IMG/VR virus record: IMGVR_UViG_3300035698_003099
Span: 1 to 53,478 of that record
Source: a virus
Length of the DNA: 53,478 nucleotides
Direction: 5' to 3' (one strand)
Under the pieces are notes generated by a model. That model worked only from the letters and a program-made list of their open reading frames with translations. It searched no databases and was not told where the DNA came from. This document shows positions 170 to 49,872 of the stretch, piece by piece. Numbering within the stretch: position 1 is the first letter of the stretch; each line of letters starts with the position of its first letter. The position numbers and the translations under genes were made by a program.

Positions 170-748
170 ATGTCTAACCACGACGCAATAATAGAGGAAA
201 GAAAATCTCTAGTAAAAAAACTATTGGATACTATCCCTGGCGAAGATTCAAGCAGAGAGGGATTGGTAGAAACACCAAAAAGAGTAGCAAAAATGTATGA
301 TGAATTATTCAGTGGCTACGAGGCAGATATTGATGTGCTATTTAAAAACAAAGTATTTTCAACTGATAACAAAAGTATGGTTATTATTAAAGATATTAAC
401 TACTGGTCACATTGTGAACACCACGTAGTACCTTTCTTTGGTAAAGTCCATATTGGGTATATTCCTGATGGGAAAGTTTTGGGGTTAAGTAAATTTGCTA
501 GACTGGTTGAAGTATTCGCCAGACGGTTACAAATTCAAGAACAACTAACCCAACAAATAGCAGATGAACTTCAAGCAAGATTAGCACCAAAAGGTTTGGC
601 TGTTCTTATTGAGGGACAACATCTATGTATGTCTATGCGTGGCATTAAAAGTCATAATGCAAAAACAATTACTACTTCTATGTATGGGGACTTCTTAGAT
701 GAAGAAGCAGTAAGAAATGAGTTCTTAAAATCTTTACAATTAAACTAA
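170..748 (+). CDS. folE: GTP cyclohydrolase I (FolE)
   Basis: FolE converts GTP to 7,8-dihydroneopterin triphosphate, the first step towards folate and towards 7-deazaguanines (preQ0, queuosine, archaeosine). The 192-residue product has full family length. The zinc ligands are visible as Cys82 and His85 in the HCEHH motif and Cys153 in HLCMSMRG. The conserved core around [13 protein letters not shown] and the segment [12 protein letters not shown] are intact, so the enzyme should be active. The ATG follows an A/T-rich leader without Shine-Dalgarno. The QueC fusion starts 8 bp downstream, which places FolE in a deazaguanine pathway rather than folate synthesis. Confidence 0.96.
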
Positions 749-755
749 AAATTTT

Positions 756-2204
756 ATGTGTAGTATAAGTGGTTTTATAAAAACACCAAAACAAACTATT
801 AGCAAAAGTTTATTAACAAATATTCTTAGCAACGCCTCAAGCAGAGGAAGAGATAGTTTTGGTATGTTTTCAGTAAGATATAATCTTCAATCAAATAATA
901 ATACTTTTGTTATTGGAACAGAGCAAAAGACAGTAGACAAAGAAAAAATAGTTTCAGAGCAATATATAAAAGAGATTATTACAAAGCTTGATGAGAATGA
1001 TGACCATATAGGGATAGCTAATCATAGGGCAGAACCTACAACTGAATTTGTAGTTGATAAAAAAGAAAGAGATGTTCAACCATTCTCAGATAAGAGTAAA
1101 AGATTTTTTGTAGCTCATAATGGCGTGATAGCAAATGACAAAGAGTTGAAAGAAAAATATAATTTAGAAACAGAAACAAATATAGACACAGCAGTTATAC
1201 CTGAATTATTGGCAAAAAAATTAGATGGGGTAACCGAGAACACTTTTGAGAAGATTAAAGAAATATTCCAAAAAGAAATAAAGGGTTCTTACGCAATAGC
1301 AATCTATGATGTTGAAAATCCAGACGATTTAATTTTATTAAATAATTATAAACCTTTAGCATTGCTAAGGGGAACAGACACAGCATATTTTACTTCTCTA
1401 AGTTCTTTCTTCAATAATAAGACAAATGGTTATCAAGGTGTTACTTACATACCAGCCTATTCAGCAACAAAAATATCTATAACAGATAATGGTCTTACTT
1501 ACAGGACACAAAAATTGAGGCTTGAAAAAGAGGGGAAGAAAAAATGTTTAGTGGTTTGTTCAGGTGGGTTAGATAGTAGTGTTGTTGCTACTTATATGAA
1601 AGAGGTAAAAGGATATGATATTACTTTATTGCACTTCAAATATAAATGTAGAGCTGAGGAACAAGAAATAAAAGCAGTCAAAGATGTTGCAGAAGCTTTA
1701 GCTATGGAAGTTTTATTTGTTGAAACAGATATATTTAAAAGTGTAATTAAACATAGCCCACTCTTAGACGATAAAACTGAAGTAAAGAAAGGTGATGCTG
1801 GTGTAGAATTTGCCCACGAATGGATACCTGCTAGAAATTTGATTATGTTATCAATGGCAACAGGAATAGCAGAGGCACAAGGATTTGATGTAATTGCTTT
1901 AGGAAATAACTTGGAAGAGTCTGGTGCTTATCCTGACAATGAAGAGATATTTATTGAAAAGTTTGCTGAGATTTTACCCTTTGCCGTAAATGTTGATAAA
2001 GAAGTAAAAATTGAAATGCCCGTGGGTAATTTAATGAAACACGAAATAGTAAAATTAGGTATTGATTTAAAAGCCCCACTAGACAAGACTTGGAGTTGCT
2101 ATGAGGCAGGAGAAAAACATTGTGGAGAATGTGGACCTTGTAGAATGAGGAAAGTAGGCTTTCAGATGAATAATACACCTGAAGTAATTGACTATGAAAA
2201 ATAA
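756..2204 (+). CDS. queC: Class II glutamine amidotransferase-QueC fusion (Gat-QueC)
   Basis: Residues 1 to about 250 form an Ntn-type class II glutamine amidotransferase with the nucleophile Cys2 exposed after Met removal; RGRDSFGM, ANHRAEPT and VAHNGVIAND are typical active-site segments. Residues from about 262 are QueC (7-cyano-7-deazaguanine synthase) with the PP-loop SGGLDSS at 269-275 and four zinc cysteines at 448, 456, 459 and 462. QueC makes preQ0 from CDG. Gat-QueC fusions are known from archaea and from phages such as Enterobacteria phage 9g, where they are linked to archaeosine-type (amidine) bases. Here the fusion suggests a product beyond plain preQ0. The stop overlaps the next gene by 11 bp, indicating translational coupling. 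Confidence 0.93.
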   Translation: MCSISGFIKTPKQTISKSLLTNILSNASSRGRDSFGMFSVRYNLQSNNNTFVIGTEQKTVDKEKIVSEQYIKEIITKLDENDDHIGIANHRAEPTTEFVVDKKERDVQPFSDKSKRFFVAHNGVIANDKELKEKYNLETETNIDTAVIPELLAKKLDGVTENTFEKIKEIFQKEIKGSYAIAIYDVENPDDLILLNNYKPLALLRGTDTAYFTSLSSFFNNKTNGYQGVTYIPAYSATKISITDNGLTYRTQKLRLEKEGKKKCLVVCSGGLDSSVVATYMKEVKGYDITLLHFKYKCRAEEQEIKAVKDVAEALAMEVLFVETDIFKSVIKHSPLLDDKTEVKKGDAGVEFAHEWIPARNLIMLSMATGIAEAQGFDVIALGNNLEESGAYPDNEEIFIEKFAEILPFAVNVDKEVKIEMPVGNLMKHEIVKLGIDLKAPLDKTWSCYEAGEKHCGECGPCRMRKVGFQMNNTPEVIDYEK

Positions 2205-3009
2205 AAAAACAGTTTTAATAGTAGGAATAGGTGGCGTTGGTAAAGAACATATCAAAGCTGCCTATTCACTTGGGTTAAATATTATTGGTGTTGATAATAG
2301 TGTAGATGTTGAATTTGCATACCAAAGATATTTTAAAAGAGGAGAGATAACAAACCAATGGGCAGATGTGGTTGATAGATTTCCAATAAAAGAATTTCCT
2401 ATTTATTCTAGTATTGAAGAGGTGGAAGAAGATTATGACTTTGTTGTAATAGCTACACCAACCTCAACTCACAAACCAATATTCCTAAGTCTACCTGAAG
2501 ACAAGCCTAAGCTAATTGAAAAACCTATGGGCTTTAGGACAATAGATGAGAATGTATTTTGTGGGTATATGTATTTATATCAAACAGGAATAAAAGGAAA
2601 ATTTAAAAAAAGAGATACCGAACACAATTTCACTATGGTTGTTGATGACCATTATAACACTAAAGAATGGCGTTCAGGGCAAATTACAGGAGATTTATTT
2701 TCCCACTTATTATCTTTATATGTTTATATAACAAATGATACAAAGATTAAACTAACAGGGTGTATTAAAACTAAAAATTCTTTCATTGTACAGGGTTTTA
2801 GTGAGAAGTGGGGTAATATTGCATTTACTGGATTATATGGACAGACAGGTCAAAATCTTACAATAGATGGCAGTCCAGTAGTAGTTGATTACTCTAATTT
2901 GTTCAAGAAGCAATTAAAAGACCTTAAAAAAGGAAAACACAAATTATCTAATAAACAGTTAAATTTTATAGAATCTTATGTTGAGGATATTACTAGCTCC
3001 CGAATATAA
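2194..3009 (+). CDS. Gfo/Idh/MocA-like NAD(P)-dependent oxidoreductase
   Basis: The N-terminus carries a Rossmann dinucleotide-binding signature, VLIVGIGGVGKEH (residues 7-19), followed by VVIATPTSTH and the EKP motif (LIEKPMGF) characteristic of the Gfo/Idh/MocA family. These enzymes oxidise, reduce or epimerise sugars and cyclitols. At 271 residues it is shorter than the usual 330-350, so the C-terminal substrate domain is reduced. I chose ATG 2194, which overlaps the queC stop, over an upstream TTG at 2188. Its position inside the deazaguanine operon is unexpected. It may act on a nucleotide sugar for the following glycosyltransferase, or on the modified base itself. Confidence 0.78.
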   Translation: MKNKKTVLIVGIGGVGKEHIKAAYSLGLNIIGVDNSVDVEFAYQRYFKRGEITNQWADVVDRFPIKEFPIYSSIEEVEEDYDFVVIATPTSTHKPIFLSLPEDKPKLIEKPMGFRTIDENVFCGYMYLYQTGIKGKFKKRDTEHNFTMVVDDHYNTKEWRSGQITGDLFSHLLSLYVYITNDTKIKLTGCIKTKNSFIVQGFSEKWGNIAFTGLYGQTGQNLTIDGSPVVVDYSNLFKKQLKDLKKGKHKLSNKQLNFIESYVEDITSSRI

Positions 3010-4057
3010 AGGGAGACCCGAGGTGCATATAAATAAAGAAGTATTAAAAGCTGCTAAAGAAAGAATGGTAACAGATAGTGATTTTGATTACACTATTTAC
3101 AAATGTAGCGAAGAGCCACTTGAATTAAAAAAAGTTGGTGTTTGTTATAATTATGATGAAGCAGTACAAAATCAAAACAAACAATTTGGTGAGTTCTTAA
3201 AAGATTATGAAGATGGTGATGATATATTATTTTTAGAAGCTTTCAATCCAGCTATAATTTCATTGTGGTTGATGGATAAGAAGCCTAGAAAAGTTGGAGC
3301 ACTATTCCATTCTAGTGTAGAAATTGAAGCTGATTACTTACACGATATAAGGGGAATGTTAAATTTCCAAAGAGGTGTTCTTGATGCTATTGATTTTATA
3401 TTTTGTGCCACAGACCACTTAAAAAATGAATTGATAGGAAAAAATCCACTTGGAAGCACAGCAAATATTTATAAAATTGGTTTACCTTTTAACCCAGATG
3501 AGGGTGTTTATGTTGGTGGTAGAGAAACAGTAAAAGAAAATGTTGTTGTGTTCAATCATAGATGGGAGTTTGATAAGAACCCAGATATATTTATTGACTT
3601 TGCTGTTAAGTCATTAGACAGAGAATTAAAAACTAAATTTAGGTTGTTAACTCCAACACAGAATGTAGCTGACAGAGCAGTAAAAGATTATGAACACGCA
3701 CTATCAGAATTAAATTCACACTATGCAGAAGATAAAGAAAGCAATTTTGAAGTAGTAGTTTGTGATAGTAAAGAAAAATATTTTAATGAATTGGCAAAAG
3801 CTAAATTTCAATTCGCTTGTGCTGATTTGGAAACTTTTGGCTATTCAGTAATTGAGGGTGTAGCTATGGGAGCAATACCAATCTTAAATAAAATGCCTTG
3901 TTATGAAGAAATTTATCCTGAGAAATGTTTGTTTGATTTAAAAGATAAACATTACCCATTCCATCTATTAGAAGAAGACTACAAACTAGATTCAAATTTA
4001 GTAAACAGAGTTAGATGGTATAAGCGTTCAGGAAACAGGTTAATAAGTATGTTCTAA
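2978..4057 (+). CDS. GT-B fold glycosyltransferase (GT4-like)
   Basis: The 359-residue product has a GT-B pattern. The segment VVFNHRWEFDKNPDIFIDFA (around 190-210) opens the C-terminal nucleotide-sugar domain, and DLETFGYSVIEGVAMGAIPIL (around 290-310) matches the E-x7-E donor-binding region of GT4-like enzymes. It overlaps the oxidoreductase by 32 bp and ends 2 bp before the DpdA-like gene, so all three are translated together. Donor and acceptor cannot be read from the sequence. The context allows modified DNA bases, host surface glycans or virion proteins as acceptor. Confidence 0.75.
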   Translation: MLRILLAPEYKGRPEVHINKEVLKAAKERMVTDSDFDYTIYKCSEEPLELKKVGVCYNYDEAVQNQNKQFGEFLKDYEDGDDILFLEAFNPAIISLWLMDKKPRKVGALFHSSVEIEADYLHDIRGMLNFQRGVLDAIDFIFCATDHLKNELIGKNPLGSTANIYKIGLPFNPDEGVYVGGRETVKENVVVFNHRWEFDKNPDIFIDFAVKSLDRELKTKFRLLTPTQNVADRAVKDYEHALSELNSHYAEDKESNFEVVVCDSKEKYFNELAKAKFQFACADLETFGYSVIEGVAMGAIPILNKMPCYEEIYPEKCLFDLKDKHYPFHLLEEDYKLDSNLVNRVRWYKRSGNRLISMF

Positions 4058-4059
4058 TT

Positions 4060-4965
4060 ATGAAATTATTTTTAGTAGCATCAGGCTTAGATGCAGAAAA
4101 CAGAGAAGCATTAGTACAAGCAGGTCATAAGAATGTGTTGGCTAGTTTTTATTATCTAAGAAACAAAAAGCCAGAGAGAGTAGAAGAAGCTATGAAATGG
4201 GTTAAAGACAATAATATAAATTTATTCCTTGACTCTGGTGCTTTTTCATACAGAACATCTGAGGCTTTTGGTAAATTAACCAAACAAGAGAAACTTGTAG
4301 CTGTGGATAAATATGTGGATAAGTATGTAAAATTTGTGGATAAGTGGTATGACTACTTTTCAGTTTACGCTGAATTAGACATTGACCCAATGATTCCTTT
4401 TAGTGAAGTAAAGGCACTTAGAAACAGATTCCCAGCGAATAGATTGGCTAAAATGTCACCTGTTCATCACCCTGCTACTAGAACAAGACAAGACTTTATA
4501 GATGATTGCAAAAATTTTAAGTTTATAAGTTTTGGTACTGATGATGATATATTTAATAATAGTGGTGTTTCTTCAGATTATTACGCTCCCTATGTTAGAC
4601 ATTGCTATGAGAATGGTAATAAATTCCATTGCTTTGCAAAAATAGACCACAAGGTAATATCAAACGTACCCGTTTACTCTGCTGATAGTTCTACTTGGTT
4701 GTCGGCAAACAAATTTGGGCATATTTATTTCTTTGATAGACAAAAATCAAAACTTAGGACGTTCTGGTACAAAGATATAAAAGCGTTCAAGAAAAATATA
4801 CACAAATTACAATCCATAGATAAAGGCTACAGAAAAATTTATAATGATTTTACTGCAGAGAAAAGAGATACTAGAGTTTATAGACTTATTATCAATGCTA
4901 TGGCATATCACGAGTACGAAGCATACTTAACAAAGCTATGGGAAACACGTGGAATAAAATTCTAA
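4060..4965 (+). CDS. dpdA: DpdA-like 7-deazaguanine DNA transglycosylase (TGT superfamily)
   Basis: The 301-residue protein has features of phage DpdA relatives of tRNA-guanine transglycosylase. LFLDSGAFS places Asp58 where the TIM-barrel family has a catalytic Asp, and VPVYSADSSTW offers a second Asp (209) after a repeat of the barrel pattern. In between are AELDIDP (106-110) and SPVHHP. DpdA exchanges guanine in DNA for preQ0 or a derivative. Presence downstream of folE and gat-queC strongly supports this role. Assignment rests on motif resemblance and context, not alignment. The region around 4308-4345 encodes a short internal repeat of KYVDKYVKFVDKW type. The stop codon overlaps the first dispersed palindrome. 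Confidence 0.72.
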   Translation: MKLFLVASGLDAENREALVQAGHKNVLASFYYLRNKKPERVEEAMKWVKDNNINLFLDSGAFSYRTSEAFGKLTKQEKLVAVDKYVDKYVKFVDKWYDYFSVYAELDIDPMIPFSEVKALRNRFPANRLAKMSPVHHPATRTRQDFIDDCKNFKFISFGTDDDIFNNSGVSSDYYAPYVRHCYENGNKFHCFAKIDHKVISNVPVYSADSSTWLSANKFGHIYFFDRQKSKLRTFWYKDIKAFKKNIHKLQSIDKGYRKIYNDFTAEKRDTRVYRLIINAMAYHEYEAYLTKLWETRGIKF

Positions 4966-4984
4966 CCTAAAATGTATTTTAGGT
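4965..4984. repeat. Dispersed 20-bp palindrome, copy 1
   Basis: ACCTAAAATGTATTTTAGGT has perfect 9-bp arms around a GT centre. It begins at the last base of the dpdA stop and ends 24 bp before the parB-like start. A TATAAT follows at 4999-5004, so a -35 box at the usual distance would fall inside the right arm. This suits an operator or activator site for the ParB-like gene, or a partition site. Confidence 0.85.
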
Positions 4985-5008: not shown

Positions 5009-5809
5009 ATGTCAGAACATCTATTACCAGAGGTTATTGATTTGGACAAAGTAGAGCCAAATGTATATAACCCAAACAAAATGGACAAAGCTAAATTTGA
5101 GTCCCTAAAAATAAATATTGAAAAATTTGGCTTCTTTATGCCAATTATAGTAAGAGCAAATGAAGAGAAGACAGGCTTCTATACTATTATTGATGGAGAG
5201 CATAGATGGCGTGCTTTATGCGAGGTAGGAAAGTTTGAAACTATACCTGCATACAAAGTAGTAACAAAAGAAGATGAGGCAAAAGCAAAAACATTATCAA
5301 TGAACCACCTAAGAGGAGAGATGGAAAATATTGGGGTTGCAAACATAGTGGCAGAGTTGCTACAAACAATGTCAATCCAAGAGGTAGAAGAATGGACTGG
5401 TTACACAGAACAAGAAGTTATCAATTACAGAGAGCTTATAGAATTTGATTTTGATAAGTATGAAAAATTGGACGTGGGTGATGATGCTGATTTATCAGAA
5501 GCAATGGGTGATGATGCTCAAATGTCAGATACACCTGTAAAAACATTGACTATATTATTATCTCAATCACAGGCTGACTTGTATGATAGAGCTAAAAAGT
5601 TTTTGCCCAATGGAACATCTAAAGATGATGACCAAGTATGCTTTATTGCAATACTAAAAAGGTTTGCAGAAGTCTATGGAGAAGACTCTTCAGAAGTAGA
5701 GGATATAATAACAAAGATTGATAAGCCAGAAGAAGAAAAAATTGGCGGAGTGGAAGAACCTTTGGTGGATAAAAATTTGGGCGTCGGAGGGGTTGATTTG
5801 ACTGTATGA
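5009..5809 (+). CDS. ParB/Srx-like N-terminal domain protein
   Basis: Residues 1 to about 95 show the ParB N-terminal fold: VEPNVYNPNKM, GFFMPIIVRAN, then DGEHRWRALCEVG, the counterpart of the GERRxRA CTP-binding box of ParB. Residues about 105-145 (AELLQTMSIQEVEEWTGYTEQEV) resemble a helix-turn-helix. The acidic C-terminal third is unlike chromosomal ParB. Phage ParB-like proteins near terminase genes can be DNA-binding factors, CTP-dependent clamps or nucleases, and no function is certain. A perfect palindrome lies directly upstream. The TGA stop overlaps the ATG of the next small gene (ATGA). Confidence 0.8.
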   Translation: MSEHLLPEVIDLDKVEPNVYNPNKMDKAKFESLKINIEKFGFFMPIIVRANEEKTGFYTIIDGEHRWRALCEVGKFETIPAYKVVTKEDEAKAKTLSMNHLRGEMENIGVANIVAELLQTMSIQEVEEWTGYTEQEVINYRELIEFDFDKYEKLDVGDDADLSEAMGDDAQMSDTPVKTLTILLSQSQADLYDRAKKFLPNGTSKDDDQVCFIAILKRFAEVYGEDSSEVEDIITKIDKPEEEKIGGVEEPLVDKNLGVGGVDLTV

Positions 5810-5997: not shown

Positions 5998-6867
5998 ATG
6001 ACAGAATTTGAGGAACAATATATTGAGCCAACCTACACTCCTAGCGGTGTTGTAGTTGATAGTGTTGAGGAAATAACTACTGTTGTCTATAAAGAAAATG
6101 AAAACAACCCACCTGAACAAAAACCTGAAATAGAAAAACAAGTTGCAACTGAAGAGGTAGTGGGTGAAGAAGTAAAACCTTTTGTAGTTGAACATAGTAA
6201 TGAAGATTTAGATGATAAGACTGCTACTGTTAAGCGTGGGAGAAAAGCAGGAATAGATTTAGATAAAATTAGGGAACGAACCAAGAGAGCATATTTTATG
6301 CTTCAGATGGGAAATTCAAGAATGAGTATTTTAAATACTATCAATGCTCAAGCTGAAGAAAAGGGCTGGGGGGAGATAGGAAGAAGAGCATTAGATTTAA
6401 GCCTTTCAGAATATTCAGATAAGATTGGAACTTTATCACAAAAAGATATTTCTACTTTCCAGGAATCTGAAAGACGTATGCTTATAGACCACTTAGAGTA
6501 TTGGAGATGGAATTGTGCTAAACCCGTATATGATACAGCATTAGTAAAACCAAATGCCCAAGGTCAATTACCTACAAAAACAAAACCATTAACACCATTG
6601 GATATAGCAGCACTGGGTAGGACTGTTTTGGATATAAACAAATACATAGGAGAGTTGAAAGGTTTATCCAGTACGAATGGTAGGACGTCAGTAAATATAA
6701 ATAATTTAAATAACCAAACTAATAACGTCTATGCTAAGGGAGTTGAAGAATTACAACAAGAACGGGAAAGAAATGAAAGAGAAAATAGAGATAATAAAGA
6801 CCGAAATCCTCAAATCGACGGGAAACCAGCGGGAGTTCTTATTGACGCACTTAGAGATAATCAATAG
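5998..6867 (+). CDS. Putative terminase small subunit
   Basis: The gene directly precedes and overlaps the large terminase. The first 85 residues are acidic and low in complexity. From about residue 75 a basic stretch (KRGRKAGIDLDKIRERTKRAYFML) begins a helical region that could hold the DNA-binding helix-turn-helix, followed by charged helices to the C-terminus. Small subunits recognise the packaging site and stimulate the large subunit. I chose ATG 5998, which has the common attctATG context, over GTG 5977. The call rests on position and general character rather than a clear motif. Confidence 0.6.
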   Translation: MTEFEEQYIEPTYTPSGVVVDSVEEITTVVYKENENNPPEQKPEIEKQVATEEVVGEEVKPFVVEHSNEDLDDKTATVKRGRKAGIDLDKIRERTKRAYFMLQMGNSRMSILNTINAQAEEKGWGEIGRRALDLSLSEYSDKIGTLSQKDISTFQESERRMLIDHLEYWRWNCAKPVYDTALVKPNAQGQLPTKTKPLTPLDIAALGRTVLDINKYIGELKGLSSTNGRTSVNINNLNNQTNNVYAKGVEELQQERERNERENRDNKDRNPQIDGKPAGVLIDALRDNQ

Positions 6868-8644
6868 GAATGGTGACAGGTGGGACGATTGGGCTTTATT
6901 CCTAGATTTCTATGAAAATATACACCTCTATTCTAGACCTCGTGTCGGAATAAGGACTTTTATCAATGACGATTTTTATTTGGGCATTGGCGAAGTTACT
7001 TACCCAAAGATTAAAGACTTATGCGAAGATATGATTCTTGGTCATTATTCCGAGGGAGTAGAAGTTGCTGGTATTGGTTCTGGTAAATCTTTCTCTTCAG
7101 AAATACTTGCCTGTTATGCTGCCCATCATTTACTATGTCTTAAACAAGCCCACGGTTATTACAAATTAGCACCTGATAAAGATATTGCTATTATAAATAT
7201 GGGTATTAACGCTACGCAGGCATTGTCCGTTGTATTCTCAGGTATAAAAAGTTTTATTGAGAAGTCACCCTTTTTTAAAGATTTTGAACCAAAGATTTTA
7301 AATAACACTATTAGTTTTGAAAAAGAAAAGATATTACTGTTATCAGGTAATAGTAAGTCAACTACTCCTTTGGGATATAATATTTTTTGTGGAGTATTAG
7401 ATGAAGCTGCCTTTTTTATGGACACAGAGAATAAGTCCGTGGCAGAAGAGATTTATAATGCTTTGCAAAGACGTATTGTTTCTCGTTTTGGTTATGATGG
7501 ATTACTGATGATGATTAGCTCTCCTAGATATGTCAAAGATTTTATAATGACAAAGCTAAAAGAGTCCTACGACTTAGATTCAGTATATGGTATTAAATTA
7601 CCTACTTGTAAAATTAAGCGTAAGGAAAAACTAGATGTTGCAAACAAATTTTATTTTAATCACAGGACAGCAGAGATACTTGATACTATGCCCACTACTG
7701 GGACGGTTGATTTAATATTAGATAAAGAATTAAACCCAAGAGCAGAATGGTGGGAGATTCCAGGTGAGTTTAAGAAATCTTTTGTTCAGAACCCTGAAAA
7801 GGCAAAGCGTGATTTTGGTGCTACCCCTACTGAAACTATTGAGGGATTCTTAAAGCGTGAAATAATAGAAAAAATATTTAATAATGTTACTAGAGAAGAC
7901 CCTATACTTGAGCCAGGAGTCTATGACTTGCCAGGAGAGCCATTAAGAACAAGTTATTATATTCATATTGATTTGGCATTAAACAAGGGTGGCAAAGGTG
8001 ATTTTGCTGGTTTTGCTATGGTTCACCCAGAGGGTTATATAGAAGATGAAGAAACTGGCGATAAAGAATTAAAAGTCTTTGTTGATTTTGTAGAGCGTAT
8101 AGGTTGTGATGAGGAAACAGGAGAGATAGACTTCTCTAAAATAAGAAAGAGAATATACCAACTAAAAGATGCTGGTTATAGTATTGCTGTAGTAACCTTT
8201 GACCAATTCCAATCAAGCGACTCCCAACAAATACTAAAGAAGAGAGGAATAAGAAGCGACCTACTTTCTGTTGATAGAACTATTACTCCCTATGACACAC
8301 TTAAAGCATTGTTATACTCAGGAAGAATTGATTTTCATAAGCAAGACAAACTAAAAGAAGAGCTATGCAATTTAGAATTGATTAGAGGTGTAAAAGTAGA
8401 CCACCCTCCCCACGGAAGTAAGGATATGGCTGATGCTTTGACTGGAGCAGTATATAATTGCGTTCAGAAATCAACTTTCTCTTCAGTTGGCGTTGCCACG
8501 GGTAATATGCAAACAATTAGTTCTCCTATACAAGAAGAGTATAGTCCATATATGGGTGCACCAAAGCCCGGTTCTCCTATTGAAGACAGAATTAAATATT
8601 ATGACCACTTAGAGTCATTAAAAAATAAAGGCTTATTAGATTAA
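6773..8644 (+). CDS. terL: Terminase large subunit
   Basis: This is the packaging ATPase-nuclease. The ATPase domain has a Walker A-type segment VAGIGSGKSFSSE (around 105-117) and a Walker B CGVLDEAAFF (around 215). The nuclease domain shows acidic residues in YIHIDLALNKGGKGDFAG, in AVVTFDQFQSSDSQQ, and the final GSKDMADALTGAVY. Full length of about 623 residues fits the family. ATG 6773 gives a 95-bp overlap with the preceding gene; an upstream ATG at 6731 would lengthen the overlap. The true start could also lie downstream. Domains are complete, so packaging should work by the standard headful or cos mechanism. Confidence 0.95.
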   Translation: MKEKIEIIKTEILKSTGNQREFLLTHLEIINRNGDRWDDWALFLDFYENIHLYSRPRVGIRTFINDDFYLGIGEVTYPKIKDLCEDMILGHYSEGVEVAGIGSGKSFSSEILACYAAHHLLCLKQAHGYYKLAPDKDIAIINMGINATQALSVVFSGIKSFIEKSPFFKDFEPKILNNTISFEKEKILLLSGNSKSTTPLGYNIFCGVLDEAAFFMDTENKSVAEEIYNALQRRIVSRFGYDGLLMMISSPRYVKDFIMTKLKESYDLDSVYGIKLPTCKIKRKEKLDVANKFYFNHRTAEILDTMPTTGTVDLILDKELNPRAEWWEIPGEFKKSFVQNPEKAKRDFGATPTETIEGFLKREIIEKIFNNVTREDPILEPGVYDLPGEPLRTSYYIHIDLALNKGGKGDFAGFAMVHPEGYIEDEETGDKELKVFVDFVERIGCDEETGEIDFSKIRKRIYQLKDAGYSIAVVTFDQFQSSDSQQILKKRGIRSDLLSVDRTITPYDTLKALLYSGRIDFHKQDKLKEELCNLELIRGVKVDHPPHGSKDMADALTGAVYNCVQKSTFSSVGVATGNMQTISSPIQEEYSPYMGAPKPGSPIEDRIKYYDHLESLKNKGLLD

Positions 8645-9001: not shown

Positions 9002-9472
9002 ATGTTAAAAGAATCTTTAAATAAATTTTTAAACCGAGCAAGTATGGGAAATAAAAATAAAGAAACAGTAGTTGTAGTATCAGGTGGTTTTGACCCAGTG
9101 CATATAGGTCATCTTAGAATGTTTCAAGATGCAAAGCGATTAGGAGATAAACTTATTGTGGTATTAAATTGTGATGATTGGTTACTTAGAAAGAAAGGTA
9201 AGTTTTTTATGTGTGCTAACGACAGAGCAGAGATTATAAAAGAATTTGCTTGTGTAGATGAAGTTTATATTTTAGAATCGTCAAGAGATGATGTGACTGA
9301 AGCATTAGAGGATATTAAACCAGATGTGTTTGCAAACGGAGGGGATAGAAAGAATACTAATGATATTCCTGAATATAAATATTGCGAAGAGAATGGAGTA
9401 GAGATGATATTCAATATAGGTGGAGGGAAGATAAGGTCATCTACAGATTTATTAACCAATTACAAAAAATAA
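9002..9472 (+). CDS. Cytidylyltransferase-like nucleotidyltransferase (RfaE2/HldE-like)
   Basis: The motif SGGFDPVHIGHLRMF (HxGH at residues 34-37) marks the nucleotidyltransferase superfamily that activates sugar or alcohol phosphates with CTP or ATP. The C-terminal half (FANGGDRKN, then a basic IRSSTDLL segment) resembles ADP-heptose and FAD synthetase-type enzymes, so a sugar-phosphate adenylyl- or cytidylyltransferase is the best reading. An internal ATG (residue 15) directly precedes the core fold. It is first in an operon driven by a near-consensus promoter and may supply activated sugars or polyols together with TagD and LicD further down. Confidence 0.8.
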   Translation: MLKESLNKFLNRASMGNKNKETVVVVSGGFDPVHIGHLRMFQDAKRLGDKLIVVLNCDDWLLRKKGKFFMCANDRAEIIKEFACVDEVYILESSRDDVTEALEDIKPDVFANGGDRKNTNDIPEYKYCEENGVEMIFNIGGGKIRSSTDLLTNYKK

Positions 9473-13023: not shown

Positions 13024-13043
13024 ACCTAAAATGTATTTTATGT
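13024..13043. repeat. Dispersed 20-bp palindrome, copy 2 (one mismatch)
   Basis: ACCTAAAATGTATTTTATGT differs from the consensus at one position (G to T), and that change creates the ATG of tagD at 13040. The site therefore overlaps the translation start and could couple regulation to this operon. Confidence 0.75.
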
Positions 13044-13441
13044 CTAAGATTAGAATACTTACCTATGGCACTTTTGATTTATTACACCACGGTCATATTA
13101 GATTATTAAAAAGGGCAAAAGCAATGGGAGATGAGTTGATAGTTGGATTATCAACTGATGGGTTTAATAAAATAAAAGGTAAAGAGTCCGCACTAGATTA
13201 TAAACACAGGAAAGAAGTACTAGAGGCAATTCAATATGTTGATAAAGTTATTCCTGAAAAGGGTTGGGGACAAAAGATAAAAGATATTGAAAAACACAAC
13301 ATAGATTTATTTGTAATGGGTAGCGATTGGAATGGAAAGTTTGATGATTTAAAATCCTATTGCACTGTAGTATATTTACCAAGAACAAAAAACATTTCAA
13401 CCACTAAATTAAAAAATTATGGGCTTTCTAAGAAACAATAG
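13040..13441 (+). CDS. tagD: Glycerol-3-phosphate cytidylyltransferase-like (TagD family)
   Basis: YGTFDLLHHGHIRLL (residues 9-23) holds the two HxGH histidines of cytidylyltransferases; FVMGSDWNGKFD and RTKNISTTKLK match the TagD signature. TagD makes CDP-glycerol from glycerol-3-phosphate and CTP for teichoic-acid-type polymers. Full family length (134 residues). An in-frame ATG at 13031 lies inside the palindrome; 13040 is preferred because the conserved N-terminus follows it directly. Overlaps licD by 23 bp. Confidence 0.88.
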   Translation: MSKIRILTYGTFDLLHHGHIRLLKRAKAMGDELIVGLSTDGFNKIKGKESALDYKHRKEVLEAIQYVDKVIPEKGWGQKIKDIEKHNIDLFVMGSDWNGKFDDLKSYCTVVYLPRTKNISTTKLKNYGLSKKQ

Positions 13442-14111
13442 AACAAACAACCACGAACAATTAAAAGAAATTTTATTTTTCGTTACAGATTTATTAAATA
13501 AACATAACATTAAATACTGGCTAGACTACGGAACGCTTCTAGGAGCAGTAAGAGGCAAAGATATTATCCCTTGGGATATAGATACTGATATTAGTTGCCT
13601 AGAAGAAGACAAAGAAAAAATATTTGCACTAATGCCAATTATAAATAAAAAGTTTTATTTTTGCCAACACAGTTTTAAAAATACTGGTTATCAAATTAGG
13701 TATGGAAAAGGTGAGAAGACTCACTTAGATATATTCCTTTGGTACAAAGATGAAGAGATGCTAAGACGAAGATATTACTTAGGATTAAATTCATACTATG
13801 GAACTGATGTTAGAAAAGGTAAAGACTTTCCTGCTGAATGGGTTAAAGAGCTTTCAGAAGTTACTTTGGCTGATAAAATATTTACCGCACCAAAAGACCC
13901 AGAGCAAATGTGTTTATTAAGATATGGCAGAAGTTGGAAAAGACCTTTACATATATACCAATGGAACATTACTAACCCAGCAACTAATCTAACACTTATT
14001 CCTGATGATAAATATAAAGATTACTTGAATATCAAAAGAAATAAGACTGGCGGTTTTGTAAGATTAAAATCACCTAAATTAAAAAAGAAAATTAAATTAT
14101 TTAAACAGTAA
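13419..14111 (+). CDS. LicD/fukutin-type phosphotransferase
   Basis: YWLDYGTLLGAVRGKDIIPWDIDTDI (around residues 30-55) is the hallmark of LicD proteins, with the nucleotidyltransferase-fold aspartates DIDTD; HLDIFLWY follows as a third acidic position. LicD enzymes transfer phosphocholine or polyol phosphates from CDP donors to glycans. Overlap with the CDP-glycerol-forming TagD makes glycerol-phosphate transfer a natural pairing. The acceptor is unknown: host wall polymer, virion glycan or modified DNA. Confidence 0.88.
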   Translation: MGFLRNNRTNNHEQLKEILFFVTDLLNKHNIKYWLDYGTLLGAVRGKDIIPWDIDTDISCLEEDKEKIFALMPIINKKFYFCQHSFKNTGYQIRYGKGEKTHLDIFLWYKDEEMLRRRYYLGLNSYYGTDVRKGKDFPAEWVKELSEVTLADKIFTAPKDPEQMCLLRYGRSWKRPLHIYQWNITNPATNLTLIPDDKYKDYLNIKRNKTGGFVRLKSPKLKKKIKLFKQ

Positions 14112-46269: not shown

Positions 46270-47178
46270 ATGCAAAAAATATTATTCGCTGGTGCAAGTG
46301 GTTATGGAAATTTAGGTGATGATAGTTATAAAGTATTATTCACTAGTCATTTTCAAAAATTAGGATATGATGTTTCTTTTGATAGTCCTTACCCAGAATT
46401 AAAAAAAGTTGATTGGGCAGACCACGTTGTTATAGGTGGTGGTGGTTTAATCTATGTAAATAAAACAGCTCACTTGGGTTATATGACTTCCTACTTAGAT
46501 AGAGCGATTAAAAACAAAACACCCTTTTCTTTTATCTCTTGTGGCGTTCAGGTATTTGAGTCCGACTCTAATATGAGTATTGAAGAAATTGTTAAAAAAG
46601 GAAAAGAACAATTAAAGCCTTGGGTTAAATATTTAAAATTAGCAAAAGTAATTACTGTCCGTTCTAAAAGATGTAAAGAAATTATTGATTGTGCTACTGA
46701 TAATCAAGCTAACTGTCATTATGTTCCTGATTTAGCATATAGTTTTGTACCTCCAAAAGATACAACAAAAAAATTAGGCACAGGTGTATTTATTGCCACA
46801 AAAGCAGGAAGTAATAATCCTAAATTTGAATGGGTATGGCGTCATCTAAATAATGTATGCGACGAAATACTGGTCTTAGCAATGGCAAAAGATGATTATG
46901 ATATAACAAAACTATTGGGCAAACAACTTCAAGAGAAAGGTAAGGGTGGTTACTTGACTGGGGTTGAACCAAGAAAGGCTTTAGGTATTATTGCAAAGGC
47001 AGAATATGTTGCTTCAGCAAGATACCACGGAAATATATTTGCACGAGTAGCAAAGGTTGACCCTGAAAAATTATATAATTTAGATTTGAGATACAAGAGT
47101 AGGGTAGAAGAGCCACCTGAAGATTTAAAAGAAGCATTAAAAAACATTATTATTTTAGAAGAATATGTCAAAAAATAA
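46270..47178 (+). CDS. Polysaccharide pyruvyl transferase family protein
   Basis: GASGYGNLGDDSYKVLF (8-24), HVVIGGGGLIYVN (around 56-68), ITVRSKRCKEI and the C-terminal YVASARYHGNIFA are the motifs of the WcaK/CsaB family. These enzymes add ketal-pyruvate to sugars of surface polymers. Full length at 302 residues. It overlaps the FkbM gene by 14 bp. Probable substrate is a glycan made or altered by the neighbouring transferases. Confidence 0.88.
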   Translation: MQKILFAGASGYGNLGDDSYKVLFTSHFQKLGYDVSFDSPYPELKKVDWADHVVIGGGGLIYVNKTAHLGYMTSYLDRAIKNKTPFSFISCGVQVFESDSNMSIEEIVKKGKEQLKPWVKYLKLAKVITVRSKRCKEIIDCATDNQANCHYVPDLAYSFVPPKDTTKKLGTGVFIATKAGSNNPKFEWVWRHLNNVCDEILVLAMAKDDYDITKLLGKQLQEKGKGGYLTGVEPRKALGIIAKAEYVASARYHGNIFARVAKVDPEKLYNLDLRYKSRVEEPPEDLKEALKNIIILEEYVKK

Positions 47179-47866
47179 AATCATAGAAAAACACAATTTA
47201 AAATGGTTGATTAGAGAAGACTCTAAGATAGGTCAGTTGACTCAGGATTATTTAGGTCCGAATGACAGAGAAGTTGAACTGTTTGAATTTATAGAGAAGA
47301 ATAGTAATCCAGATAAAATATTTGTTGATATTGGGGCAATGGTTGGTGGGGTTAGTTTACGAAATGCAGATAACTATAAAAAAGTTTATTCCTTTGAACC
47401 TTGTCATTTTAATTACCAAGGACTTTGTAGAAATATTGCACTGAATGATTTAGGTAAAAAAGTTTTCGCTTTCAATTCAGCAATAGGCGAAGAAAGTGGG
47501 ACAGCCTTTATTCCTAAAAAAAGTGGTGGCACAGGCTCAGTATCTTTTGAAAATGATGAAGATAAAGATGTAGTACCTATCTTCTGTTTAGATGATTTTA
47601 GCATTGATTATACTATTGGAATGATTAAGATTGATACCGAGGGTTTTGAATATGAAATTTTAAAAGGTGCTAGAAGTATTATTAAAGAAGAACGACCTTA
47701 TATTATTTTAGAAACCCACGACTTTGATATGAAAGGGAATAGAGTCAGGGAACAAACAATGCTTATAATAAGATTTCTTGAAGAGTTAGATTATGAATTT
47801 GAAATTTTAAGAACATCTAAAAATAATGATAGGCACTTAGCTTTTACTCCTAACAAATTAGTATGA
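47165..47866 (+). CDS. FkbM family methyltransferase
   Basis: KIFVDIGAMVGGVSLR (SAM motif I), VYSFEPCHFNYQGLCRNIALN, and MIKIDTEGFEYEILKGARSII are the characteristic FkbM sequence. FkbM enzymes O-methylate sugars and natural products. The gene overlaps both neighbours (14 bp upstream, ATGA downstream), so the cluster is translationally coupled. Confidence 0.9.
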   Translation: MSKNKIIEKHNLKWLIREDSKIGQLTQDYLGPNDREVELFEFIEKNSNPDKIFVDIGAMVGGVSLRNADNYKKVYSFEPCHFNYQGLCRNIALNDLGKKVFAFNSAIGEESGTAFIPKKSGGTGSVSFENDEDKDVVPIFCLDDFSIDYTIGMIKIDTEGFEYEILKGARSIIKEERPYIILETHDFDMKGNRVREQTMLIIRFLEELDYEFEILRTSKNNDRHLAFTPNKLV

Positions 47867-48513
47867 CCCCTCCACCAAAAAAACAAAAATCAAATATCAA
47901 CAAAACAGTTGTAGATTTAAAAACTTTTAATTACAAACCTAAAGACAAGATTAGCAATAAAAAGTTTTCAGTAGTTATATTTACTGGTGTGGAAGAAAAT
48001 GTTATAGATGATATGATTAGATGCTATTCTTCTATACTTGACCACAAAGATGATGCTGAACTAATATTACTATGTAGAAAATCCCAGATGAGAGAAGTAG
48101 ATGATGTAGCTGGTAAGAAATACAAGATAAAAAATTATTCATTAAAAGTTTATAATGACACAGGTAGATATACTGATTGCCTAAGGTCGGGTACTGTTTA
48201 TATGGATTTATCAAGTAATCTAAATTCAAATACTTGTAGAAATTCCTTAATCCGTATGTTAGAAGCTATGGCGTGTGGTAATCCCATCATTGGTGTGAAT
48301 ACAAAACACAACGTAAGCTCTATTCTAAACGATTTTAACGCATTTCTCTGCCCACTTGATACATTGTACAAAATTGACCTTGTAGAGTCACAGAGAGCCA
48401 TTTTGAGAGCATACACACTATGGAAAAAGCAACCTTTTCAATGGCTAGGTAGAATAGATGCAAGTTTAAACACGGCAAGAGATACAAAATTTAAAAATTT
48501 AATCCTTAAATAA
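47863..48513 (+). CDS. Short GT-B glycosyltransferase-like protein
   Basis: The 216-residue protein resembles the C-terminal nucleotide-binding domain of GT4 enzymes: VYMDLSSNLNSNTCRNSLIRMLEAMACGNPIIGVN corresponds to the E-x7-E segment. The N-terminal acceptor domain is missing, so it may be a degraded enzyme or partner subunit of the full-length transferase that follows 6 bp later. Start overlaps fkbM in ATGA. Confidence 0.65.
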   Translation: MTPPPKKQKSNINKTVVDLKTFNYKPKDKISNKKFSVVIFTGVEENVIDDMIRCYSSILDHKDDAELILLCRKSQMREVDDVAGKKYKIKNYSLKVYNDTGRYTDCLRSGTVYMDLSSNLNSNTCRNSLIRMLEAMACGNPIIGVNTKHNVSSILNDFNAFLCPLDTLYKIDLVESQRAILRAYTLWKKQPFQWLGRIDASLNTARDTKFKNLILK

Positions 48514-48519
48514 AATTTT

Positions 48520-49872
48520 ATGATGGACTTTCCCAAAGCGGAAGCCTTATCACAACCAGCGATAAAGCTACAAAAGATGAAGAGAACACCAGGGGGCAAA
48601 ATTCGTGTCCTATGGTATAGCGATTTTCTATTCCCTACTGGGTTTGGAAATGTTGCTGATGAGATTATTACCAGGCTACAAAAGACTGGCAAATATGATA
48701 TTGAAGTGTTAGGAATAAACGCTACAGGCGAACCTTACAATATACCCAGTAGCCCTTACTACCACTTAAAAGACATTCCTGTATATCCTGCCTTTGATAG
48801 ACGCAGTAATGATATGTTAGGAAGACAAAAATTTGTAGATTTAATATCAAAGAATGACTATGATATTATTTTTGCTTTGCAAGACCCTTTTAATATGACT
48901 GGTTTTGCTGATATGTTTAAAAGTGCTAGAAAGGCAAAGAACTTTAAATATATTTATTACTTCCCTGTTGATGGTGTTATTAAAAAAGATTGGGTAGATA
49001 AAGCTATTGCTGTTGCTGACAAGCCTGTGGTATATACAAATTTTGGTAAAGAAAAAGTATTAGAACATTTACCATCATTAGATTTAGAAATTTTAGAACA
49101 CGGTGTGGACGAGAAATTATTTAAACCTATTGAAACTAACACAGAAAGAAATGAATTTAGAGAAAAATTCTTTTTGGTAAAAGATGAAAAGACTATTGTA
49201 GTTACAAATGTAAATAGAAATCAACCTAGAAAAGATTTACCTAGAACTTTAGAAGCCTATTTTAAATTCGCTGAAAAGTACCCTAACAGTAAATTATATT
49301 TACATTGTTTATCTTCTGACCCTGCTGGTCACGATTTAAAAGCATACATTGATACTTATGTCCCAGATTATTTAAGGGATAAAGTCATTCTGCCTGTTCA
49401 GGAAAAAATGGCTAAGGGCGGTTACCCAAGAAGTATGATGCCTTATATTTATGCAGGTTCAGATATTGTTGTTTCTACTACTCTTGGAGAGGGTTGGGGA
49501 TTATCAACAACTGAAGCAATGGCGTGTGAAACACCTGTGGTTGTTCCTAACAATACTTCTACTACTGAAATTGTCGGAGCAAATGAAGAAAGAGGTTATC
49601 TAACAAAATGTGGTGAAACAGAATCAAACTGGTTTGTTCAGAAGATGGACAACAACCAAAAAAGACCTTTGGTTGATATTGATGATATGGTTGCTAAAAT
49701 GTGTAGAGTAGTAGAACACCCTGAAGAGTCAAAAGCTAAGGCAAAAGAAGCTAGAAAGTTTTTAGTTGAAAATTGGACTTGGGATATTATGACTAAAAAG
49801 TGGGACGAGATATTCACTAAGCAATATAAGAAGATGTACCCAGATGCAGAATTGACAACAAACAAAAAATAA
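48520..49872 (+). CDS. Glycosyltransferase, GT4 family
   Basis: The 450-residue protein has complete GT-B architecture: IRVLWYSDFLFPTGFGNVADEI starts the acceptor domain; VVTNVNRNQPRKDLPRTLEAY opens the donor domain; IVVSTTLGEGWGLSTTEAMACETPVVVP is the GT4 donor-binding E-x7-E region. It is the last gene of the glycan cluster, and its 3-prime end carries the -35 of a promoter. The donor sugar cannot be determined. Confidence 0.88.
   Translation: MMDFPKAEALSQPAIKLQKMKRTPGGKIRVLWYSDFLFPTGFGNVADEIITRLQKTGKYDIEVLGINATGEPYNIPSSPYYHLKDIPVYPAFDRRSNDMLGRQKFVDLISKNDYDIIFALQDPFNMTGFADMFKSARKAKNFKYIYYFPVDGVIKKDWVDKAIAVADKPVVYTNFGKEKVLEHLPSLDLEILEHGVDEKLFKPIETNTERNEFREKFFLVKDEKTIVVTNVNRNQPRKDLPRTLEAYFKFAEKYPNSKLYLHCLSSDPAGHDLKAYIDTYVPDYLRDKVILPVQEKMAKGGYPRSMMPYIYAGSDIVVSTTLGEGWGLSTTEAMACETPVVVPNNTSTTEIVGANEERGYLTKCGETESNWFVQKMDNNQKRPLVDIDDMVAKMCRVVEHPEESKAKAKEARKFLVENWTWDIMTKKWDEIFTKQYKKMYPDAELTTNKK

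Follow-up and report, generated by a model that had tools for sequence, protein, structure and literature searches.

Sugar-bearing 7-deazaguanine as the probable product of a phage DNA-modification operon

The window analysed here is the whole of a 53,478-nucleotide stretch of viral DNA (IMG/VR record IMGVR_UViG_3300035698_003099, positions 1 to 53,478), an open contig fragment whose first base lies 169 bp before folE. Five genes at its start, folE, gat-queC, a gene for a Gfo/Idh/MocA-type oxidoreductase (Gfo), a GT-B glycosyltransferase (GT) gene and dpdA, form one overlapping operon. Together they probably constitute a DNA-hypermodification unit that yields a sugar-bearing 7-deazaguanine in phage DNA. 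Relatives of the GT lie in 7-deazaguanine clusters in all lineages examined, and the Gfo travels with one GT clade. Phages with a GT of this type thus probably put sugars on a guanine-like DNA base.

Gene arrangement

170..748, + strand: folE, GTP cyclohydrolase I, which starts 7-deazaguanine synthesis (PF01227 E 3.2e-71; TIGR00063 over cut-off)
756..2204, + strand: gat-queC, a fusion of class II glutamine amidotransferase (N-terminal MCS) and QueC, predicted to form archaeosine or preQ0 (PF06508 E 1.9e-56; GATase_7 E 4.4e-16; full-length phrog_10428 E 2.1e-136)
2194..3009, + strand: short Gfo/Idh/MocA-type NAD(P) oxidoreductase, predicted to tailor a sugar (PF01408 E 3.3e-7)
2978..4057, + strand: GT-B glycosyltransferase, predicted to glycosylate 7-deazaguanine (phage homologues, motifs, predicted model)
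4060..4965, + strand: DpdA-type DNA guanine transglycosylase (phrog_887 'queuine tRNA-ribosyltransferase' E 1.6e-24)
5009..5809, + strand: ParB-like protein (PF02195 E 3.2e-12; ParB homologues in the same place in contigs L005 and L018)
6731..8644, + strand: terminase large subunit, TerL (phrog_2 terminase E 8e-14)

The Gfo ATG at 2194 lies inside gat-queC (stop at 2204), an overlap of exactly 11 bp, and the GT start at 2978 lies inside Gfo (stop at 3009), an overlap of exactly 32 bp. GT and DpdA are separated by 2 bp, the DpdA start being 3 bp beyond the last base of the GT stop codon. A sequence-only reading had placed an oxidoreductase and a glycosyltransferase between gat-queC and dpdA with these two overlaps; the coordinates proved exact, and family searches agree. 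Is the gene order conserved in other phages, as that reading had asked? It is: viral contig L005 has the same five-gene order, with ParB, TerS and TerL. ParB marks a conserved slot from DpdA to the terminase in the window, L005 and L018.

Relatives of the glycosyltransferase

Searching IMG/VR directly with peptide patterns from the window GT, Gfo and DpdA, or from two-sequence alignments, gave no match. A degenerate GT motif scan succeeded, and relatives were thus found without using neighbourhood. The pattern ETFGYSVI[ED] gave three matches in 2.9 million viral contigs, L005 among them. There the order is folE-queC-Gfo-GT-DpdA-ParB-TerS-TerL, with identities to the window of 41% (FolE), 24% (QueC), 32% (GT, E 2e-44), 24% (DpdA) and 34% (TerL); queC and Gfo again overlap by 11 bp, and the QueC is without the amidotransferase domain.

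A looser GT motif found L018, its fragment L017, and L019. L018 has queE, folE, a queD-like gene, a GT-A-like gene (4245-4973, a weak assignment, GT2 E 0.035), GT-B, DpdA, two ParBs and TerL. Its queD-like gene is named from position and sequence reading, the PTPS profile having no match in the record, and no QueC was found in this 19-kb contig. The enlarged record of L019 (L032) has a radical SAM gene, QueC, a PIG-L-like gene, GT-B, DpdA and a sliding clamp; neighbouring genes from the PIG-L-like one through to the clamp overlap by 1-4 bp. GT-B stands directly upstream of DpdA in the window, L005, L018 and G001, and overlaps it in three of these four records (by 4 bp in L018 and 1 bp in G001). 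Among other motif hits, L003 and L004 were chance matches, L013-L016 had no match to the GT profile, and L026, the sole weak relative from the genome_contigs motif scan (tblastn E 3e-5), was not confirmed by that profile.

In annotated phages, the window GT as query found only four records, all Xanthomonas and Erwinia jumbo phages (29% identity over 92%, E 5e-28). In phage PhiXhv-12, gat-queC, a PIG-L deacetylase gene, the GT and an unannotated 'hypothetical protein' are packed end to end in this order. The latter is a Gfo/Idh/MocA protein (PF01408 E 3e-9) homologous to the window Gfo; thus the window trio recurs in an unrelated and far larger phage. The recurrence of gene order and 11-bp overlap in L005, and of a homologous gat-queC/GT/Gfo set in Xanthomonas jumbo phages, makes the arrangement more than a chance one.

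The L018 GT as query returned 20 phage records at E<1e-12, falling in six lineages, of which one representative each was opened. In all six the GT is within a few kb of queE, folE, queD or gat-queC:

Phosso: GT cluster with folE and queE
ACP17: GT cluster with queD, folE and queE
PAC2 (a PA5oct-like phage): GT cluster with queE
X1: GT cluster with folE, 'queuine tRNA-ribosyltransferase' and queE
BUCT-ZZ01: GT cluster with queE, queD and folE
PhiXhv-12: GT cluster with gat-queC

Four lipothrixvirus GT matches (E 1e-3 or weaker) were set aside as generic GTs, and a search of plasmids for GT relatives gave no match. Since only 226 of the 50,697 phage records show a QueC-like match, and neighbourhood played no part in finding the GT relatives, chance is not a reasonable explanation for the linkage. 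On gene content and position, the link of this GT family to the 7-deazaguanine pathway is well supported, in about ten phage lineages. For PA5oct a deazaguanine system has been noted by comparative genomics, in a passage that is silent on glycosylation of that base (PMC7824862).

Could the GT and Gfo be a passenger glycan pair, placed in the operon by chance and serving glycosylation of the virion or cell surface? The sequence-only reading had offered this as its alternative. The window has other glycan genes that keep the idea alive weakly:

46270-49872: glycan block with a polysaccharide pyruvyl transferase, an FkbM methyltransferase, a short GT and a GT4 of a family other than that of the operon GT
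9002-9472, 13031-13441 and 13419-14111: two cytidylyltransferase-like proteins and a protein of the LicD family, which overlaps the second of them

The LicD and cytidylyltransferase genes suggest CDP-activated transfer of a phospho-group, whose target could be the virion, the host surface or the DNA sugar. Yet the GT at 48520 and the operon GT are of different families, gene overlaps tie the operon GT to its neighbours, and its relatives stay in deazaguanine clusters across unrelated phages. A passenger pair is thus highly improbable, and the sugar-bearing base that the sequence-only reading had proposed is favoured.

Base synthesis and insertion

The window Gat-QueC is 39-43% identical, over its full length, to Gat-QueC of phages 9g, Vid5, NP1 and others, and D58-S-G-A, D107, H190 and D209-S of the window DpdA align with 9g DpdA. 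With FolE, Gat-QueC and a motif-bearing DpdA in one cluster, the window has these marks of a Dpd system.

Are the GT and Gfo part of base synthesis? Phages 9g, Vid5, NP1, BA3 and R7M have queE, gat-queC, queD, folE and dpdA, and neither of the two; both are also absent from Nicole72, which has the synthesis genes, and from a Fusobacterium phage that has a queuosine-precursor transporter and a relative of DpdA. The 9g gat-queC and dpdA suffice for deoxyarchaeosine (dG+) in E. coli plasmid DNA, and 9g itself carries plain dG+ (PMC6884629). As standard Gat-QueC phages are without both genes and the 9g genes alone give dG+, the GT and Gfo are an addition to base synthesis and not a part of it; since 9g, which has neither, carries the plain base, they look like an added tailoring step. 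The sequence-only reading had counted relatives with folE, queC and dpdA and neither gene as evidence against it, if they showed the same base; such relatives exist in 9g, NP1, Vid5, BA3 and R7M, and the 9g base is the plain one, so half of that objection came about. Another polyol enzyme is seen in a deazaguanine cluster without the operon-type GT: Stenotrophomonas phage Ps15 (L038 3316-4566) has a myo-inositol-1-phosphate synthase (PF01658 E 1e-21) between folE and queC.

In PhiXhv-12 no DpdA was detected with phrog_887, and the sole candidate found, P0014, was reached through a weak phrog_10773 match. P0014 (L036 9555-11261) is a protein of 568 aa with the motifs DSGGFQ and SDSSSH, similar to those of tRNA-guanine transglycosylase (TGT), and a PF01702 match at E 0.07; it lies about 93 kb from the gat-queC cluster. 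Other phrog_10773 proteins, at L028 5715-6986, L030 8103-9413 and L031 5337-6584, are near or beside the GT and have TGT-like motifs (DSGG-x-Q, SFDE). The phrog_10773 proteins are possibly a divergent DpdA subfamily, a reading taken from the motifs and the X1 depositor's name; profile comparison gave no support for them as DpdA-like.

Sequence and fold of the glycosyltransferase

Libraries recognize the window GT weakly (Glycos_transf_1 E 0.01; phage GT phrog_4356 E 6e-4), and with PF00534 it is under the curated family cut-off (15.9 bits vs 26.4), which the L018 homologue passes at 28.2 bits. Residues H111, R195, K200 and E285-T-F-G are invariant in the GTs of the window, L005, L018 and L019, and the window protein carries the R/K donor-phosphate and E-x-F-G motifs of GT-B glycosyltransferases (GT4/GT72-like). 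The BUCT-ZZ01 GT has lost the ETFG motif and may be a degenerate or altered copy.

An AlphaFold2 model was made from four phage sequences (predicted local distance difference test score, pLDDT, 70; predicted template-modelling score, pTM, 0.68). The best Foldseek match is tetrahydrobiopterin glucosyltransferase 9v0l (E 9e-10), the second-best the DNA-bound T4 DNA alpha-glucosyltransferase 1y6f (E 5e-9), with MshA and BshA next; VIA Z is ~22 against MshA, OtsA and BshA. The predicted structure is a GT-B fold, and such matches give the fold, not the substrate.

The Gfo/Idh/MocA protein

The Gfo has 271 aa counted from the ATG, and its PF01408 match (31.5 bits vs a cut-off of 24) covers residues 8-116 of the TTG-started open reading frame. 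E109-K110-P111 and D167-x3-H171 are invariant in the Gfo proteins of the window, L005 and PhiXhv-12, and the nucleotide-binding glycines are kept. The E-K-P lysine and D-x3-H are catalytic in the Gfo/Idh/MocA superfamily, and the window protein has these together with the PF01408 Rossmann domain. Homologues stand beside the GT in L005 (29% identity, E 9e-23) and PhiXhv-12 (BLASTP E 7e-11); L005 was the sole hit of a scan with a relaxed Gfo motif. PF01408 occurs in three of ten GT-bearing records (the window, L005 and PhiXhv-12), adjoining the GT every time, and the GTs of these three are on one side of a GT-tree branch (support 89/90).

What does the Gfo act on? It might reduce or otherwise remodel the base or its 7-side chain, and not the sugar. 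QueF, a nicotinamide-dependent reductase, acts on preQ0 in the tRNA pathway, and the 11-bp overlap ties the Gfo gene to gat-queC. The QueF fold differs, however, and the best equivalog matches of the Gfo are UDP-GlcNAc 3-dehydrogenase and inositol 2-dehydrogenase, though both are far below cut-off. The gene also follows the GT clade, and in PhiXhv-12 it adjoins the GT, with two genes between it and gat-queC. A base-acting Gfo is therefore quite improbable, and the 'reduced base' variant of the sequence-only reading finds no specific support, the library-named relatives being sugar or inositol dehydrogenases.

Proposed pathway

FolE and Gat-QueC would produce a 7-deazaguanine, in the likeliest case archaeosine (G+), as it is in 9g, or else preQ0; QueD and QueE would be supplied by the host or encoded past the end of the contig. 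DpdA would then swap it for guanine in phage DNA. The GT would move a sugar, probably a hexose or N-acetylhexosamine, from a nucleotide sugar onto the 7-deazaguanine once inserted or, with lower probability, onto the base while still free, and the Gfo/Idh/MocA protein would oxidise or otherwise remodel this sugar or the sugar donor. Phage DNA would thereby come to hold a bulky 7-deazaguanine with a sugar on it, which would protect the DNA against nucleases. The acceptor base, sugar identity, Gfo role, order of steps and protection are all points that we infer.

Several points weigh against this proposal. A profile search of the window contig, an open fragment, found no PTPS/QueD, and QueE had no specific search. 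QueC is absent in Phosso, ACP17, PAC2 and BUCT-ZZ01, although the GT family is present, and for this reason the acceptor group (amidine, nitrile or carboxyl) is hard to name as one constant; the 7-substituent in QueC-less phages may be a carboxylate, and in the window the amidine of G+ or a nitrile. The GT model, from four sequences, is of moderate confidence, and the Gfo model (pLDDT 44) is too poor for structure search. The PIG-L match of G001 spans just 28 residues, below cut-off. The window GT is acidic (pI, isoelectric point, 5.2), by itself no hint of DNA binding, and its top structural match acts on a pterin, so that a small-molecule acceptor is possible.

These last two points fit a GT that acts on a small molecule of the pathway, either a pterin from FolE or free deazaguanine before insertion by DpdA. 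So does the presence of folE in nearly every cluster; and whether Gat-QueC of 9g acts before or after insertion is not known (PMC6884629). On the other hand, T4 DNA alpha-glucosyltransferase scores almost equally as a structural match, a free pterin glycoside would be without obvious benefit to a phage, and in the four records with GT next to DpdA, three of them with an overlap, folE lies elsewhere in the cluster. A small-molecule acceptor is thus rather unlikely, and glycosylation of the inserted base remains the preferred reading.

Tailoring partners and exchange

Further genes accompany the GT. The PIG-L (GlcNAc-type) deacetylase beside it in PhiXhv-12 is clear (31 bits, over cut-off), and that beside the GT of G001 is a weaker match; the window has no PIG-L gene, and with it no GT and deacetylase pair of the bacillithiol/mycothiol type. 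Other sugar-related partners are the GT-A-like gene of L018 and a second GT in BUCT-ZZ01. In PhiXhv-12 (L001 4684-9849), LFTR-type (PF03588 E 2e-29) and GNAT/FemAB-like genes follow one another directly upstream of gat-queC, and a further protein of this region matches DUF5591 weakly (E 0.056). The partner genes suggest that the sugar, possibly an aminosugar, is elaborated further.

With TerL identity as the gauge of kinship, L018 (48%) is a nearer relative of the window than L005 (34%) is, and yet the window shares the Gfo and the GT clade with L005; L018 has a GT of the other clade. From these comparisons, the slot between base-synthesis and terminase genes appears to exchange tailoring modules. 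The window, L005 and L018 share TerL ancestry and are related phages, and PhiXhv-12, Phosso, ACP17, PAC2, X1, BUCT-ZZ01 and G001 are the more independent cases. A separate feature of the L018 phage is that, as read from its sequence, intein-like insertions seem to interrupt its TerL and DNA polymerase A (L018 9527-12460, L033 3318-6000).

Do phages hold a modular toolkit for glycosylated 7-deazaguanines in DNA? Tentatively, the deazaguanine-tied GT family might attach an initial sugar, and interchangeable enzymes (a Gfo oxidoreductase, a PIG-L deacetylase, additional GTs, and the LFTR/GNAT/FemAB-type acyl- or aminoacyl-transferases of PhiXhv-12) might build on it, giving bases with oxidised sugars or aminoacylated aminosugars. 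The idea is plausible but doubtful.

If the proposed glycosylation is true, it would unite base replacement with base glycosylation, both classic chemistries by which phages protect their DNA, and a function would be assigned to a family often annotated just 'hypothetical protein'. The GT-bearing lineages include cultured phages: PhiXhv-12, ACP17, PA5oct-like phages, X1 and Phosso. To our knowledge, phage 7-deazaguanines carry small side chains only (cyano, formamidine and similar). No 7-deazaguanine bearing a sugar in DNA was reported in the searchable literature, and full-text searching for DpdA together with glycosyltransferase turned up nothing relevant; 2023 work on further phage 7-deazaguanines and older computational surveys are outside that scope, so an earlier mention of the GTs is possible.

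Comparison with known systems

The 9g-type Dpd system, which makes dG+ (PMC6884629), resembles the window in that folE, gat-queC (39% identical to that of 9g) and the gene for a DpdA whose motifs align with those of the window DpdA are clustered. It differs in that 9g, Vid5, NP1, BA3 and R7M have queE and queD and no GT or Gfo, whereas the window carries these two between gat-queC and dpdA, and its contig yielded no queD. Mannosyl- and galactosyl-queuosine of animal tRNA are described as having a sugar on a 7-deazaguanine nucleoside (PMC8654956, PMC7384130), as proposed for the window base, but in tRNA and via the cyclopentene diol of queuosine. MshA and BshA, with MshB and BshB, of the mycothiol and bacillithiol pathways share the retaining GT-B fold, and the GT and PIG-L pairing is seen in PhiXhv-12 and, as a weak match, in G001; their acceptors are inositol phosphate or malate, and the window is without a PIG-L gene. 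Glycosylated phage bases are known from T4, whose DNA alpha-glucosyltransferase has the GT-B fold and transfers sugar to a modified phage DNA base, as predicted for the window GT. The T4 acceptor, however, is 5-hydroxymethylcytosine, there is no evident sequence relation (12-15% in structural alignments), and the window GT lies in a deazaguanine operon.

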